Assembly (NCBI RefSeq): GCF_900129985.1
Contig: NZ_FQXN01000008.1
Span: 1-56,013, forward strand
Length of the DNA stretch: 56,013 nucleotides
Direction: 5' to 3'
Source of the DNA: Thermosipho atlanticus DSM 15807
GTDB taxonomy: Bacteria; Thermotogota; Thermotogae; Thermotogales; Fervidobacteriaceae
Positions 39,027 to 45,199 of this stretch are shown here, piece by piece. Below the pieces are notes generated by a model. The model was given only the letters and a program-made list of their open reading frames with translations, did not search any database and was not told where the DNA came from. How positions within the stretch are numbered: position 1 is the stretch's first letter; every line of letters starts with the position of its first letter. Position numbers and translations under genes: made by a program.

Positions 39027-39324
39027 TTATAATCTATGAAAATGATTTATAAATGATATTTTTGAAATAAGGTGTATTGCGGTAAACAATTCCTATTTAG
39101 GATTATTATCCAGATTAATTTTCTCAAATCTTCATTATAATCTTTTGTTGACTACTATCCTTCCAAGTTTTAAAATTCTAAATTTGTGATAAAAAACAAA
39201 TTGTTATATACCATAGCTTAAATTAAAACTTGTGTTTGTTGCTTCTCAAGCCAATTTTTTAAAATCCACTAAAAAGCTATATCTACGTATAAATTTTAAA
39301 TAGAAAAATGTACAAATGATTGTA
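39027..39324. other. Intergenic stretch between the GGDEF gene and tRNA-Pro
   Basis: AT-rich, with stop codons in all frames at short intervals. Minor inverted repeats occur (TCCTA-TT-TAGGA near 39090; AATTTGT/ACAAATT near 39182), too weak to call as terminators. No gene seen. Confidence 0.5.
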
Positions 39325-39353
39325 TTGCCTAAAAATTTTAACTATGTTAAAAT
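39325..39353 (+). promoter_or_regulatory. tRNA-Pro promoter
   Basis: TTGCCT (39325-39330), 17 bases, TAAAAT (39348-39353) with a TG one base upstream (extended -10). The predicted start is within about 7 bases of the tRNA 5-prime end. Confidence 0.55.
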
Positions 39354-39366
39354 AATAATGCATGTT

Positions 39367-39443
39367 CTGGGCGTAGTTCAGTTGGCTAGAACGCCAGAAT
39401 CGGGATCTGGAGGTCGTGGGTTCAAGTCCCACCGCCCAGACCA
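39367..39443 (+). tRNA. tRNA-Pro (anticodon CGG)
   Basis: All four stems pair: acceptor CTGGGCG/CGCCCAG, D stem GTTC/GAAC, anticodon stem CCAGA/TCTGG with loop ATCGGGA, and T stem GTGGG/CCCAC with TTCAAGT. Anticodon CGG reads CCG codons. C1-G72 and discriminator A73 are the proline identity elements, and G37 follows the anticodon. The 3-prime CCA is encoded in the DNA. Confidence 0.97.
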
Positions 39444-39475
39444 TTTTCGTAAATCTAACAAATTAAATCAAAAAT

Positions 39476-39508
39476 GCCTCCCATATCTAGGGAGGCTGTT
39501 ATTTTATT
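39476..39508 (+). terminator. Terminator after tRNA-Pro
   Basis: GCCTCCC/GGGAGGC stem (39476-39482, 39490-39496), seven-base loop, then TGTTATTTTATT. Confidence 0.82.
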
Positions 39509-39563
39509 ATCACATACATTATATTTATTTAAATTTATTTTACAAATTTAGCCAAACTTTCAA

Positions 39564-39896
39564 CTAAAAAATAAGAATACCAACTATTAAAAACGGTAAT
39601 CCCGACACTGATATAGCTAACAATTTATTGTGACCTGCTGTAATACCCGCAAAAACACATAGAAAAAGTGCTCCAATTATTACAATTGTAGCACCCAATC
39701 TTTTATATTTAAAATTAAGGAGAAAACCTACTATTTCGGTAAAAATCAACAAAGTAAGTATCACACCTTCCATTATTGCAGTTTCTGTAAACTGTAAATG
39801 TTCATTTGCAGCTCCAAAAATATGACCTAAAAGGATAAACACCCAGAAGGAAATTACAATAAAACCTAAAATTTTACCAATTTTGTTTCTGGTCAT
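39564..39896 (-). CDS. Small membrane protein, four predicted helices
   Basis: I do not recognise a named family. The 110 aa protein is strongly hydrophobic, with helices at about 9-27, 41-62, 68-86 and 91-109, and few charged residues between them (NFKYKR near 61-66 is a likely cytoplasmic turn). It has a good ribosome binding site (GGAGGGG). It lies 38 bases downstream of the STN-barrel gene on the same strand, so it may be the last gene of the secretin locus. Confidence 0.6.
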   Translation of the reverse strand: MTRNKIGKILGFIVISFWVFILLGHIFGAANEHLQFTETAIMEGVILTLLIFTEIVGFLLNFKYKRLGATIVIIGALFLCVFAGITAGHNKLLAISVSGLPFLIVGILIF

Positions 39897-39934
39897 AATG
39901 TTTACCCCTCCTTAAAATTTTAAGTAAACGTATT

Positions 39935-41257
39935 TTACCAATGCATTTCCACAACTATTCCAAAAGTCAATAAACTATCTATATATAGTTTTAAATCATA
40001 AATTGAATACTTAATACCAATCTCACCTGATATCTGTAGATCATTATCAACACTTATTTTACCACTAAATGATAAATCATAATTGATTTTGTGTATCATA
40101 CCAATTCCTAAACCAAATTTTAAATTTTCACTTAAATACTGACCGTCGATTCCATCTAAATTGGAGAGATCAACAGGAAAAGAACTCCTCAGTTCTATAA
40201 AAAACGGTTCAAAATAGTAACTATCTTCTGCTGTTATAATTAAATTTGTTGCATTAGTAAGTTCAACCATTGCACCAACATTAAAATAATCAACTAACTT
40301 TAATTTTGCCCCTACGAAATAACTTTCATCTTTTAAAATAAACGCTCCTATTCTTTCATCGGATAGATAAATTTCGAAATTATTTGTTGAAAAATACTTT
40401 AATCCTATAGTTTTTGTTGGAACATAGTTAACATCAGATACTTTTTCTTCAATCTTACTCTTTAATTCTCCTATTTTAATTAAAACTACAAACTTCCCAA
40501 AAGAACCATTTAATATGTTTTTATAAACTCCATTTGAAAAAGGCACTTCATATTTTGCAGAATCTATTCCCTTTTGAAAATTAAATTTTAGTTTACTAGA
40601 AGCAGTTTCTATTGTTATTGAAATTTCACCTTGTATATTGATTTTCACATTATTTCCAACAAAAAAACCATTCGTATTTAAAACAAATTTTGCTTTCTCA
40701 AGAACAGGAAATAAATCAATCAACTTTTCAGGCTTCAAATTATACTTTGTGGCATCAGTATTCTTTACATAATATACCACGTATGAAACTACCATATTTT
40801 TCATTTCAGTGTCAATTTCCTGGAGTCGCTTCAGATATTCAGGCCATAAACTATCAGGACAATAAACTATTACATTATCACCTACTGCGTATATAGGAAG
40901 AGTATCTAAAACTTTTACAATTGAACTTGCAGAACGATTTTTTGGTTCATAGACATGAGGAACATAGTATGAGAGAGAATCTTCAGAAAAAACCACAAAA
41001 ATATCCTCAACTTTACTATATGAAAAATTAAAAGGTGATAAAATCACTTTCAACGCTGTCTCAAGAGAAACATTATATAAAATCACATTAACATTGCCAC
41101 TAATAGTGTTTGGATAAATAATTGTAGCATTAAACATCGTACCCAGTTGAGTTAGAACATCTTTGATATCCACTTCCTGGAATACTACATCATTTGTTTG
41201 AGCAAACAATGCTGTAAAAAGTAACAAAATAAACAAACCTATAATCATTTTTCTCAT
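39935..41257 (-). CDS. STN (secretin N0) domain protein with C-terminal barrel-like region
   Basis: The 440 aa exported protein has a signal peptide (1-20) followed by a secretin/TonB short N-terminal (STN, N0) domain at about 23-92, with the same pattern as the N0 domain of the secretin encoded upstream. The rest lacks secretin motifs. Instead it has alternating polar/hydrophobic beta strands (about 200-440) and ends in an aromatic residue (VVEMHW), as outer-membrane barrels do. Its start overlaps the secretin stop by four bases. An outer-membrane partner of the secretin is a plausible role. Confidence 0.62.
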   Translation of the reverse strand: MRKMIIGLFILLLFTALFAQTNDVVFQEVDIKDVLTQLGTMFNATIIYPNTISGNVNVILYNVSLETALKVILSPFNFSYSKVEDIFVVFSEDSLSYYVPHVYEPKNRSASSIVKVLDTLPIYAVGDNVIVYCPDSLWPEYLKRLQEIDTEMKNMVVSYVVYYVKNTDATKYNLKPEKLIDLFPVLEKAKFVLNTNGFFVGNNVKINIQGEISITIETASSKLKFNFQKGIDSAKYEVPFSNGVYKNILNGSFGKFVVLIKIGELKSKIEEKVSDVNYVPTKTIGLKYFSTNNFEIYLSDERIGAFILKDESYFVGAKLKLVDYFNVGAMVELTNATNLIITAEDSYYFEPFFIELRSSFPVDLSNLDGIDGQYLSENLKFGLGIGMIHKINYDLSFSGKISVDNDLQISGEIGIKYSIYDLKLYIDSLLTFGIVVEMHW

Positions 41258-42378
41258 TTTCGCTCACCTACCAATTTAGCTTGTATAACAATAATTACAT
41301 TTTTTTTGTGTGTTTCATATTTTGTTTGATAAAACAACTTTCCAATTATTGGAACGTCCTTCAACCCTGGAATACCAATATTTGTTTTTAATACAGTTTC
41401 AAAAGATAATCCAGCAATATAATAAGGTTCTTGGTACTTAACATCAACACTTGTTTCAAGTAAAGAACCCACAGGATTATCGTTTATTCCATCATTCATG
41501 ACAGATTCAACAATTGTTCTAACATTTAAACTTATATGTTTTAGAAAAACATAACCCGTTAAAATTACTTCTGTGGTTAATCTTTTTTCAACATAATTAT
41601 TATTTGCATCAACAAGTTTTAAACCTATAGTCGTATAACCTGAAATCCTTGAAACATTCCCTGACTTTACAAGAAGTGTTCCTTGACCTAATATTTTCGC
41701 GTTCCCAGAACGTATAAGTGAATCTAACAAGAAACTTAACTCATATGATAGGGGATTTATAATTGCCTGTAATCCATTCGGTGAATAATTGAAATCGAAC
41801 CCTTGACCTCCCTCAGAACTTATTGCCCAATTTATTCCGAACTTTTCAAAATCTTTTTCATCCACTTCAATTATCTTGACTTCGACTTCAGCAGTATAAA
41901 CTGGTATATCGATATAGGTAATAGTCTCCGCTATTTGAGAAGCTATTTTTGGCGGAGCATATATTAAAACCTGATTTATGTTAGGAGTTCTATAAATATA
42001 ATTTCCAAAAATTTTTGGTAGTGCATTTACAACGTTATCATACGTTATGTTATACAAATTAATCAGATATTTTTCAGATATAAGACCAAATCCCGAACTA
42101 TCAGGATCAGCAACCCCTACAAAATACACATTATCTACTTTGGTCCAATAATAACCTAACGGGAGCAACATCAAATCCAAAGCTTTTTCTAAAGATACGT
42201 CGTATACCTCTACCGTTATAAATCCAGAAACAAGGGGATCATATAAAATGGAAACTCCTTCCTGCATTGAAATTTGACTTAATGCATCTCTGATATCTGT
42301 TTGATAAAAATACACATCCACAGAAAACACAAAACTAATAACCAATAAAAAATAAATTATAATTAAAAATTTTCTCAT
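41254..42378 (-). CDS. Compact secretin (N0-N1-secretin)
   Basis: Secretins form large gated outer-membrane channels for type II/III secretion and type IV pili. The 374 aa protein has a signal peptide (1-19), an N0/STN domain (about 21-90), an N1/NolW-like domain (about 100-160) and a secretin domain (about 163-370) with the family motif IPGLKDVPIIGKLF at 336-349. It is short, with one N1-type repeat and no C-terminal S domain. No ATPase, pseudopilin or inner-membrane secretion gene lies nearby. It overlaps both neighbours by four bases. Confidence 0.85.
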   Translation of the reverse strand: MRKFLIIIYFLLVISFVFSVDVYFYQTDIRDALSQISMQEGVSILYDPLVSGFITVEVYDVSLEKALDLMLLPLGYYWTKVDNVYFVGVADPDSSGFGLISEKYLINLYNITYDNVVNALPKIFGNYIYRTPNINQVLIYAPPKIASQIAETITYIDIPVYTAEVEVKIIEVDEKDFEKFGINWAISSEGGQGFDFNYSPNGLQAIINPLSYELSFLLDSLIRSGNAKILGQGTLLVKSGNVSRISGYTTIGLKLVDANNNYVEKRLTTEVILTGYVFLKHISLNVRTIVESVMNDGINDNPVGSLLETSVDVKYQEPYYIAGLSFETVLKTNIGIPGLKDVPIIGKLFYQTKYETHKKNVIIVIQAKLVGERK

Positions 42379-43784
42379 TTTTTCACTTCCCCTATAATCT
42401 TTTTTTGATCTAATTTCTTATCACCATATTTTTTAAATAAAATAAATGTACTATTCTTTACTATCTCATTATATGCAGAAGAAATTACAAATTTCTTACT
42501 TTCATTTGGAAACAATACAAACTCCTCTGTAAAATCTATAGTTTGTAAAGGATCCTGCCGAATAATTTTTCCTTGTAAAATAGTATTACCTGTATTTCTG
42601 ACGTTAATACTGAAAGTATTAGTAGCCACGTCAGTTACAAATGTTTCACAATCAACAGTTAATTCCCCTGACCGCAAAACAATCACAGGATTTTTAAAAA
42701 GGAAAATTTTCTCTTCAGAAGTAATATCTATTTCAAAAATATTATCTCCATCATTTAAACTTGAATTTCTTGAATCATATTTTATAAATCCATTAATTTT
42801 TGTATATGGAGACAAACGAATTGTCGAAGGAAAAATTTCTATACTATCTGAGTTAGTTTTTAAACTAAATCTAAGAGATTTGGGTGAAAGATTCTGTATA
42901 TTAATTTTTGCATTCTCTATTGTTCTTTCTACAGGAATCAATATAATAAAAGGATCAATTAAAACGGCTGTTTCTTTAGGTTGTTCACCCGTGATATTTA
43001 TCCTCTTAAAATTTGTCACCCTCATTCCTTGTGAAATTCCATCCATCTGAACTTCAAACTTTCCCCTTGGAAGAACAAAAGGTACAAAATATTCGAAGGA
43101 GACAACTCTATTTGGAAAAACAACAAAAGAGTTACTTGTAAGTGGAATCGAAGTTATAATTCGATTGATCTCTCTTGAAATAAGTCTCAATTCTCCATTA
43201 ACAGCTAAAACCGCATTTCCGTTATTTTTGATTTTTAATTCAACAACTGCTCCAAAATTACCATATTTATTTATTAAACTTTCAGAAGCAATTGATGTAA
43301 GATCAACAACTTGAGCATCTATAATTTCTGTCCTCATATTTTTTTGAACTGGAAAATCCAGAATTATTAACGAAACATAATCAAACACTGTCTCAAAAAC
43401 ATCGGTTTTCCCGCCTTTTTGTTTAAAATGTACAGCTCCAAAAGCTTGAGCACCTCTAAAATCTCTGGGAATATTTAGTTTTATTTCGTAATCTATTGAT
43501 TCACCTGGTTGTAATATTAGATATGTACTCTCACTGGTCATCCAATTTTTTATACTATACGAATATTCACCAACATCATATAAATATTTATTTCCCTCTA
43601 TCACAAAATCGCTAAATTCCACTTCAACCTCAGCAATTGCTGGTGCCGAATTTGCAACATTAATTATTATTTTAATCTCATTTGTTCCAGAACTAATATC
43701 AATTCTATTTACTACAGGATAAATAGTAATCGTAAAAGAAACAACACTAAAAAATAATAAAATAACTAAAATAATCTTTCTCAC
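42375..43784 (-). CDS. Secreted Ig-like protein (PapD- or DUF916-like N terminus)
   Basis: The 469 aa exported protein has a signal peptide (1-18) and then appears to be several beta-sandwich domains. The first (about 20-145: YPVVNRIDISSGTNEIKII, then a LILQPGESIDYEIKLNIP strand pair and FGAVHFKQKG) has the pattern of periplasmic pilus chaperones and of DUF916 proteins. The later part (to about 450) has NTGN-type loops found in surface Ig-like repeats. I cannot decide between chaperone and surface anchor. It shares an ATGA overlap with the secretin gene. Confidence 0.55.
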   Translation of the reverse strand: MRKIILVILLFFSVVSFTITIYPVVNRIDISSGTNEIKIIINVANSAPAIAEVEVEFSDFVIEGNKYLYDVGEYSYSIKNWMTSESTYLILQPGESIDYEIKLNIPRDFRGAQAFGAVHFKQKGGKTDVFETVFDYVSLIILDFPVQKNMRTEIIDAQVVDLTSIASESLINKYGNFGAVVELKIKNNGNAVLAVNGELRLISREINRIITSIPLTSNSFVVFPNRVVSFEYFVPFVLPRGKFEVQMDGISQGMRVTNFKRINITGEQPKETAVLIDPFIILIPVERTIENAKINIQNLSPKSLRFSLKTNSDSIEIFPSTIRLSPYTKINGFIKYDSRNSSLNDGDNIFEIDITSEEKIFLFKNPVIVLRSGELTVDCETFVTDVATNTFSINVRNTGNTILQGKIIRQDPLQTIDFTEEFVLFPNESKKFVISSAYNEIVKNSTFILFKKYGDKKLDQKKIIGEVKK

Positions 43785-43879
43785 AATCTCACCTCAAAAT
43801 TCAATTTAATACATTAATAATATGCCATCTATACCATTTAATTAGATAAACACTTGTATTTATAAACATTTAAAAACTC

Positions 43880-43907
43880 GCAAAAATTGGCCCCAAAAGG
43901 GGCCAAT
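43880..43907 (-). terminator. Strong hairpin between the small secreted genes and the secretin genes
   Basis: ATTGGCCCC-AAAA-GGGGCCAAT (43886-43907), a perfect 9-bp stem. On the minus strand it is followed by TTTTTG, so it should end most transcripts leaving the two small secreted-protein genes. On the plus strand a T6 run also follows, making it potentially bidirectional. Confidence 0.8.
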
Positions 43908-43934
43908 AGTTTTTTACCTATATCTTTACTTTAC

Positions 43935-44402
43935 TTAAAATGTTACTGTTGGTTCAAATGTTATCGAAAGTACAACTGTATAATCTCCAGCAGGTGTATT
44001 AGGATCTATATTAGTAATTGTTACTCCTATCAAATAATCTCCATCACTTATTGGTGATGTTGGCATAAAGGGATTACCGTCTTTTAAAACATATACTGTT
44101 CCACTAATATAAGCATCAAGTCCTCCCCAATCTGCATCTACACTCACTTCTACGTCAGCATTTGAATCAAGTGAAAACCATAAAAGGTCAACGTCTTCAG
44201 GTACATTTTCATAATCACAAATATCAAAGAAGCTATCTATCATCCATTCATATTCTAGATCCATCCATTGATGTACATACACTGTTATAGTTGAATCTAA
44301 TGTCAAAGTATCAAACTGACATCCTGGTACATGTATAAAGTTTCCATTTGCGAAAATAAATAAACCAAATAATACTAAAATTCCAACCAATAATTTTCTC
44401 AT
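43935..44402 (-). CDS. Small secreted beta-rich protein (paralogue B)
   Basis: I do not recognise a named family. The 155 aa protein has a signal peptide (1-19), two cysteines (C28 in HVPGC, C62 in ICD) that could form a disulfide, and predicted beta strands throughout. It shares with the next gene upstream the blocks HVPGC, VHQW-D, SNADV-VS-D, TPAG-Y and a final FxPTV-aromatic. The PAG-Y-plus-strand ending resembles fibre subunits of the spore-coat-U type. High expression seems likely from the strong ribosome binding site (AGGAGGGG) and the terminator behind it. Confidence 0.7.
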   Translation of the reverse strand: MRKLLVGILVLFGLFIFANGNFIHVPGCQFDTLTLDSTITVYVHQWMDLEYEWMIDSFFDICDYENVPEDVDLLWFSLDSNADVEVSVDADWGGLDAYISGTVYVLKDGNPFMPTSPISDGDYLIGVTITNIDPNTPAGDYTVVLSITFEPTVTF

Positions 44403-44442
44403 AAATTTACCCCTCCTTCAAATTTTTCTTTCCAATCTTTTC

Positions 44443-45027
44443 TTACCAACTAACTGTTGGATTAAACGTAAATCTAACCGGTAAATAATACACTCCTGCA
44501 GGTGTTTCATATGGTCCAGGATCTGATGTTAAGACGTTTATTGTAAAAACAATGTCTCCTATACTAGCCTCTGGTAACCATACAGGAATAGTAGTATCTG
44601 TTCCCATCCTTGTTAAATCGCCCATGTTGTAGTTAAATTGAATATAGCTGTCTTCATTACTTTCTGCATCTGTAGATTTCACAAAAAAGTAAATTGAAAT
44701 ATTTTCAAGCACTCCTCCCCATTCATCCCTAAAATATGGATCTGGGAAATCAATTGAAACTTGCACATCTGCATTTGAAAAATAAGACATTTGAAGCAAA
44801 ACAAATCCATCTTCTAGATAAACATCATTTGTTTCCTTATCACATACATGATATGGTGTGGCATCCCATGTTATGTCTATCCATTGATGTACTCTTGTGT
44901 CAATCTCATGGGTAAGATCGGTACTTTCCCAGTCACAACCAGGAACATGAAGAACATTAACTTGCGAAACCCCAACTAAAGCTAAAATCAAAACAAATGT
45001 CAAAACTAAGATTTTTATAAACCTCAC
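44443..45027 (-). CDS. Small secreted beta-rich protein (paralogue A)
   Basis: This is a paralogue of the following gene, 194 aa from the GTG at 45027. I chose this start because GGGAGG lies seven bases upstream, which gives a clean signal peptide (MRFIKILVLTFVLILALVGV). An ATG at 45042 would sit before the ribosome binding site. C31 and C62 match C28 and C62 of paralogue B. It is longer because of an insertion near 95-150. The C-terminal TPAG-Y and FNPTVSW strand match B. Function unknown; an exported structural subunit is my inference. Confidence 0.7.
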   Translation of the reverse strand: MRFIKILVLTFVLILALVGVSQVNVLHVPGCDWESTDLTHEIDTRVHQWIDITWDATPYHVCDKETNDVYLEDGFVLLQMSYFSNADVQVSIDFPDPYFRDEWGGVLENISIYFFVKSTDAESNEDSYIQFNYNMGDLTRMGTDTTIPVWLPEASIGDIVFTINVLTSDPGPYETPAGVYYLPVRFTFNPTVSW

Positions 45028-45199
45028 TTTTACGCCTCCCATCTTTTAAAAAACAACACAACAAAAAGTAACAACAAACAGAAAATCTTCTAAATTCTAC
45101 AATCTTTCTTTCGTTACCATTTTTTAAATGAAATAACTCTTTCCTTTGTTGAAAATGTTTATTTGTTAATAATATTTATTTAAAGATATTTAAAATTAC

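Follow-up and report, generated by a model that had tools for sequence, protein, structure and literature searches.

We analysed a 56,013-nucleotide stretch of Thermosipho atlanticus DSM 15807 (hereafter the window), taken from a 1.64 Mb assembly of 11 contigs. Its minus strand carries, between positions 39564 and 45027, a six-gene operon that brings together small exported subunits, an exported immunoglobulin (Ig)-like protein and a compact secretin, and that we consider here as a candidate surface-assembly module. The six genes named in the original prediction, which was made from the sequence of the window, are all present and in the predicted order. Listed in the direction of transcription, the features are as follows.

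44443..45027, minus strand: SUB199, small exported beta-rich subunit 2, of the same family as SUB155 (phmmer ~1e-12).
43935..44402, minus strand: SUB155, small exported beta-rich subunit 1 (155 amino acids, aa), described from an AlphaFold model and weak pilin fold matches.
43886..43907, no strand assigned: palindromic terminator-like hairpin in the gap between subunit genes and machinery genes, found in the sequence.
42375..43784, minus strand: IG469, exported four-domain Ig-like protein (469 aa), a two-domain unit like that of WxL-interacting proteins (WxLIP) and fimbrial chaperones, duplicated in tandem.
41254..42378, minus strand: SEC374, compact secretin (374 aa) with an N0/STN domain, a short N domain and the secretin core, and no S-domain.
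39935..41257, minus strand: STN440 (440 aa), a secretin-related N0 domain followed by a barrel-like C-terminal region ending in Trp.
39564..39896, minus strand: MEM110, small membrane protein (110 aa).

IG469 overlaps SEC374, and SEC374 overlaps STN440, by ATGA, as had been claimed, and the five larger proteins of the operon have signal-peptide-like N-termini, as read from their sequences. For SUB199, the GTG at 45027 (194 aa), with a GGGAGG ribosome-binding site 5′ of it, is better placed than the alternative ATG at 45042, which would give 199 aa (44443–45042).

Conservation was followed in 103 Thermotogota genomes. SEC374 used as a protein query has matches in 61 of them, and a profile of the compact secretin finds, among the matches listed, 72 places in 59. 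At 64 of these 72 places the IG gene lies directly upstream on the same strand; six of the other eight places are contig ends or fragments. Downstream of the secretin, a same-strand gene of at least 200 aa, mostly of the STN/barrel type, directly adjoins it in 51 of the 55 loci examined, the N-terminal STN domain of its product not being recognisable in some families. Dozens of loci repeat the order subunits, IG, compact secretin, STN-barrel, and the distance matrices of the IG, secretin and STN proteins correlate with r = 0.89–0.96, compared with at most 0.12 when permuted, although part of this correlation is due to shared species descent. Because the order recurs so often and the matrices correlate, we conclude that the operon is held together far beyond chance. 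In genomes that carry a second locus, the paralogues of IG, of the secretin and of STN have each diverged strongly. Co-occurrence of the exported proteins across the Thermotogae, which had been put forward as a check on the prediction, is therefore borne out, and the small proteins, on whose association with the secretin the prediction was said to stand or fall, do accompany it. Two loci in genomes of family f10 (L135 and L088) carry IG and STN-barrel pairs without a compact secretin.

The predicted six-gene set thus holds for the five larger genes, whose order recurs across the phylum. Apart from the window, MEM110 turned up in just three close relatives, and is therefore not part of the conserved module. 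A tRNA-Pro lies immediately outside the operon; an 83-aa open reading frame (ORF) on the plus strand of the window (39316–39567) is probably spurious, because it overlaps tRNA-Pro (CGG) at 39367–39443.

The same distribution bears on the suggestion that the module builds or anchors the toga, the outer sheath described as the unifying feature of the Thermotogales (Petrus 2012, PMC3387000). Distribution across the phylum and outer-membrane components would fit such a role. However, 44 of the 103 genomes, 99%-complete ones included, have no compact secretin among the matches listed, whereas others have two loci, and OmpA and OmpB are named as the proteins of the toga (PMC3387000); for this comparison, the presence of a toga was taken at order level from the same source rather than genome by genome. 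Because so many Thermotogota genomes are without the module, we regard the assembly or anchoring of the toga sheath as its most improbable function, and this part of the original prediction was not upheld.

Judged by its sequence, SEC374 is a true secretin, and we consider this call solid. It matches Pfam PF00263 (1.9e-13) and STN (2.1e-9), its profile retrieves PilQ (4e-40), GspD (6e-40) and pIV (1.5e-32) from the PDB, and its chain stops with the secretin core. The N0/STN domain of STN440 has a profile match to PilQ (4e-8), and the protein is beta-rich beyond it. An aromatic last residue (Phe, Trp or Tyr) is present in 41 of 51 STN440 homologues, compared with 19% of background proteins, an excess that is as expected for a predicted outer-membrane barrel. 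No usher (PF00577) was found at the locus, where the exporter slot is taken by the secretin and the STN-barrel protein.

As secretins also serve as PilQ, it has to be asked whether the compact secretin belongs to a type IV pilus. PilB- and PilT-like ATPases, PilC, the pil-slot proteins and the large PilQ of the same genome were searched for among the ORFs of the neighbourhoods. Matches to PilC and to the pil-slot proteins occurred only in two control loci (L094 and L081), both of which contain a large PilQ; for the PilB-like ATPase the sole match, a weak one (26 bits), is to a 102-aa ORF in locus L079; the large PilQ query also matches the compact secretins themselves. At the locus itself there is no ATPase, platform protein or pseudopilin. 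The type IV pilus or competence reading was rejected on this neighbourhood content. The earlier statement that pilus machinery is missing around the secretin is therefore correct, the 26-bit ATPase-like match being the lone exception, and in the neighbourhoods examined the compact secretin is not regularly accompanied by a complete type IV pilus operon.

It might still be a second PilQ, serving a type IV pilus or DNA-uptake machine whose genes lie elsewhere. A curated competence table (PMC5637354) gives the name pilQ to both TM1117 and TM0088 of T. maritima. In genome G090 the positions of the large PilQ (91 kb) and of the compact secretin (1,129 kb) would fit TM0088 and TM1117, respectively, by gene number, and TM1117 is probably, from its genome position, the T. 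maritima member of the compact-secretin family. Type IV pilus ATPases also exist elsewhere in the T. atlanticus genome (PilB/PilT type, contig C1). However, the 1348-aa large PilQ of this genome is encoded at a separate locus, close to PilC on another contig (C3), and most Thermotogota possess a large PilQ-type secretin. The compact secretin, moreover, follows IG and STN in its inheritance, not the pil genes. We therefore consider a second PilQ very unlikely, and suggest that where a compact secretin carries the annotation PilQ it has no part in a type IV pilus.

The model of IG469 (predicted local distance difference test score, pLDDT, 90) has four Ig-like domains. The two halves are mutually related (hhalign 99.5%, E 7e-23), domain 1 with domain 3 and domain 2 with domain 4, and the protein is therefore a tandem duplicate of a two-domain unit. 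The IG profile matches EfmWxLIP1, a WxL-interacting protein of Firmicutes, with E 2e-9, and the Pfam family WxLIP_PGBD (PF06030) is matched by 28 of 47 IG members at E ≤ 0.01 (best 1.6e-8), IG469 of the window itself giving E 0.053. A WxLIP_PGBD search also produced matches in the control genome Methanosarcina acetivorans, an archaeon, and in Lactococcus lactis and T. maritima. A fold search with the IG469 model returned CfaA (8e-10), CsuC (1e-8) and WxLIP (2e-8), with template-modelling (TM) scores of ~0.5–0.6 on the target; ciliary multi-Ig proteins rank higher, but loosely (TM below 0.3). One of the entries retrieved, PDB 9i25, is a WxLIP–WxL complex.

The model of SUB155 is all-beta (pLDDT 84.6), and residues 20–46, after the signal peptide, are without strand; this unbuilt segment would fit a donor-strand extension. 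Chaperone-usher pilins and tip subunits make up ~42 of the 50 matches listed in its fold search against the PDB, and three further matches are the Pyrodictium cannulae fibre, the Sulfolobus 0406 filament and TLP-1b. Searches of the subunits against Pfam and NCBIfam gave nothing useful, and a PDB profile search gave nothing significant (best 0.044). The small exported proteins upstream form one linked sequence family across the phylum, with 77 members, the remoter of which are joined via intermediates only and two of which are 403–410 aa long. Fervidobacterium-like loci have none upstream, and their subunit homologues are convergent, just downstream; a 250–290-aa family without signal peptides, transcription-regulator-like, is encoded upstream of IG in several of them (L040, L046–L048, L067 and L070).

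A terminator-like hairpin between the subunit and machinery genes is present in 14 of 33 loci, compared with 0.06 expected from block shuffling, and of the 48 gaps that separate one subunit gene from another, 6 contain a hairpin of the same type. Placed 3′ of the subunit genes, the hairpins might allow many subunits to be made for each export machine.

The relationship of IG469 to WxLIP raises the possibility that the module is a diderm version of the WxL surface complexes, in which the subunits and the WxLIP-like protein bind peptidoglycan in a static complex and connect the outer membrane or toga with the wall, the secretin and STN-barrel protein being an anchor rather than an exporter. WxL clusters typically contain two WxL proteins and one WxLIP (PMC10599100), comparable to the two subunits and one IG protein here, and the outer sheath of Thermotogota is loose. 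Nevertheless, none of the 26 subunits scanned matches the WxL domain (PF13731) at E ≤ 0.1, and none of 49 IG proteins has a C-terminal transmembrane helix (mean hydropathy of at least 1.6 in a 19-residue stretch of the last 80 aa). A secretin pore would in addition be odd as a static anchor, and the module is absent from many Thermotogota genomes. We think a complex of this kind unlikely.

From the gene content and order, the co-inheritance, the WxLIP relationship, the duplication of the two-domain unit and the hairpins, all established computationally, we infer instead a chaperone–secretin pathway for a surface fibre or polymer, in which Ig-like subunits are exported by strand exchange and a secretin with a barrel protein stands in the place of the usher; we give this reading a probability of about 0.5. 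The small subunits would cross the inner membrane via Sec, as the signal peptides in their sequences suggest. In the periplasm, by analogy with its relatives, IG469 would hold each subunit, its strand completing the open beta-sandwich, before passing it on to the secretin and the STN-barrel protein at their N0 domains. Operon structure and co-inheritance suggest that these two proteins together may form the outer-membrane exit that replaces the usher. No ATPase is encoded nearby, and strand exchange presumably drives assembly; an assembly driven in this way would therefore need none. Strand donation from chaperone to subunit is established for chaperone-usher systems, and to our knowledge no secretin system exports strand-exchanged subunits. 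WxLIP, for its part, is predicted to donate the strand that completes WxL (PMC10599100).

Several observations, besides this want of a precedent among secretin systems, weigh against the proposed pathway. For SUB155 the fold search gave weak matches (best E 0.0038; TM 0.3–0.43), and no WxL domain is among the 50 listed. In two genomes of one genus, IG and the secretin are ~2.5 kb apart and on opposite strands. Some genomes have the IG and STN pair and no secretin, which is therefore not always required. These genes have no known association with a fibre. The chaperone-usher-like logic with a secretin for the usher, as originally predicted, is supported by the relationship of IG469 to DUF916/WxLIP, by its fold matches to fimbrial chaperones and, weakly, by the likeness of the subunit to pilins.

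In type II secretion, folded proteins leave the periplasm through a secretin, and the small proteins could likewise be soluble cargo that is released, with IG as a delivery factor and the secretin as a simple exit gate. A survey of secretion systems found the Thermotogae to be the only diderm clade without any of the systems searched for, and considered that they may have evolved their own (Abby 2016, PMC4793230). However, neither an ATPase nor pseudopilins were found near the compact secretin, and cargo is not expected to resemble pilins or to require a matched double chaperone. Release of soluble cargo consequently seems to us quite improbable.

In the open-licence literature searched (Thermotoga with toga, secretin or fimbriae), no description of the module was found. 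The conserved operon of secretin, WxLIP-type chaperone and pilin-like subunit is a concrete candidate for the Thermotogae's own secretion system. If the chaperone–secretin pathway is true, it would be the first outer-membrane system dedicated to export to be described for Thermotogota, usher and secretin would be able to occupy the same slot, and three families usually treated separately, Firmicute WxL surface complexes, chaperone-usher pili and secretins, would be linked. We also suggest, tentatively, that the module could represent a new class of surface-assembly system, characterized by WxLIP-type double chaperones, strand-exchanging Ig-like subunits, an exit of secretin plus barrel, and no ATPase.

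Relatives of IG were also found outside the module, in a comparison set of 287 genomes of other groups. In ~15 loci examined, an IG relative, mostly single-unit, is followed by a barrel-like protein of 800–1070 aa, and the slot after the chaperone therefore tends to hold an outer-membrane protein, which supports the reading of secretin and barrel protein as the exit. Such loci (L108, L110–L115, L120, L122, L124, L127–L129, L131 and L132, the IG relatives being mostly of 250–400 aa) come from many bacterial families; locus L136, in the Thermotogota genome G029, also has an IG relative with an 800–1070-aa barrel-like protein. The large proteins were rejected as ushers: none of 9 matches Pfam Usher at E ≤ 0.001, no usher structure was found by profile, and only SdrD_B or prealbumin-like C-terminal domains were matched. 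‘Usher-like’ is therefore an impression of their architecture only, and an IG relative with such a protein may be a further undescribed chaperone and exporter pair. A compact secretin follows an IG relative in two non-Thermotogota genomes (G148 and G373), and the G148 subunits look closely like those of Thermotoga. The G148 locus (L103) has the complete module, and its operon includes, besides the double-unit IG gene (543 aa), a further single-unit one (262 aa), which is suggestive of duplication history or horizontal transfer.

Among known systems, the toga proteins OmpA and OmpB of Thermotoga are likewise outer-envelope proteins of this phylum, whereas the module is missing from many of its genomes. 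SEC374 is a secretin like GspD of type II secretion, PilQ of type IV pili and pIV of filamentous phage, and resembles pIV (PDB 7ofh) in its small size, its lack of an S-domain and its domain plan. It differs from all of these in being nearly always accompanied by IG, and usually by a second N0-bearing barrel protein, and from the type II and type IV pilus secretins in that its locus is without ATPase, platform protein and pseudopilins.

With the WxL/WxLIP clusters of Firmicutes (DUF916–DUF3324; EfmWxLIP1, PDB 9i1y and 9i25) the module shares the family of IG469, by profile and by fold, two small beta proteins beside one WxLIP, and the predicted strand donation to a partner. Here, however, the host is diderm, IG is a four-domain tandem duplicate without the C-terminal transmembrane helix, the subunits lack a WxL domain match, and a secretin and an STN-barrel protein follow. 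Because there is neither a WxL domain nor a membrane helix, the module cannot be classed as a WxL cluster. Chaperone-usher pili (CFA/I CfaA–CfaB, archaic Csu, type 1 and Caf1) have in common with it small Ig-like subunits and a chaperone-like partner, both matched by fold (the subunits weakly), and the order subunits, chaperone, outer-membrane exporter. In the module, by contrast, none of 47 IG members has a PapD-family Pfam match, the chaperone is double, and the exporter slot holds a secretin plus a barrel protein; because there is no usher, it cannot be classed as a chaperone-usher system. Most likely, nevertheless, the module works like chaperone-usher and WxL systems.

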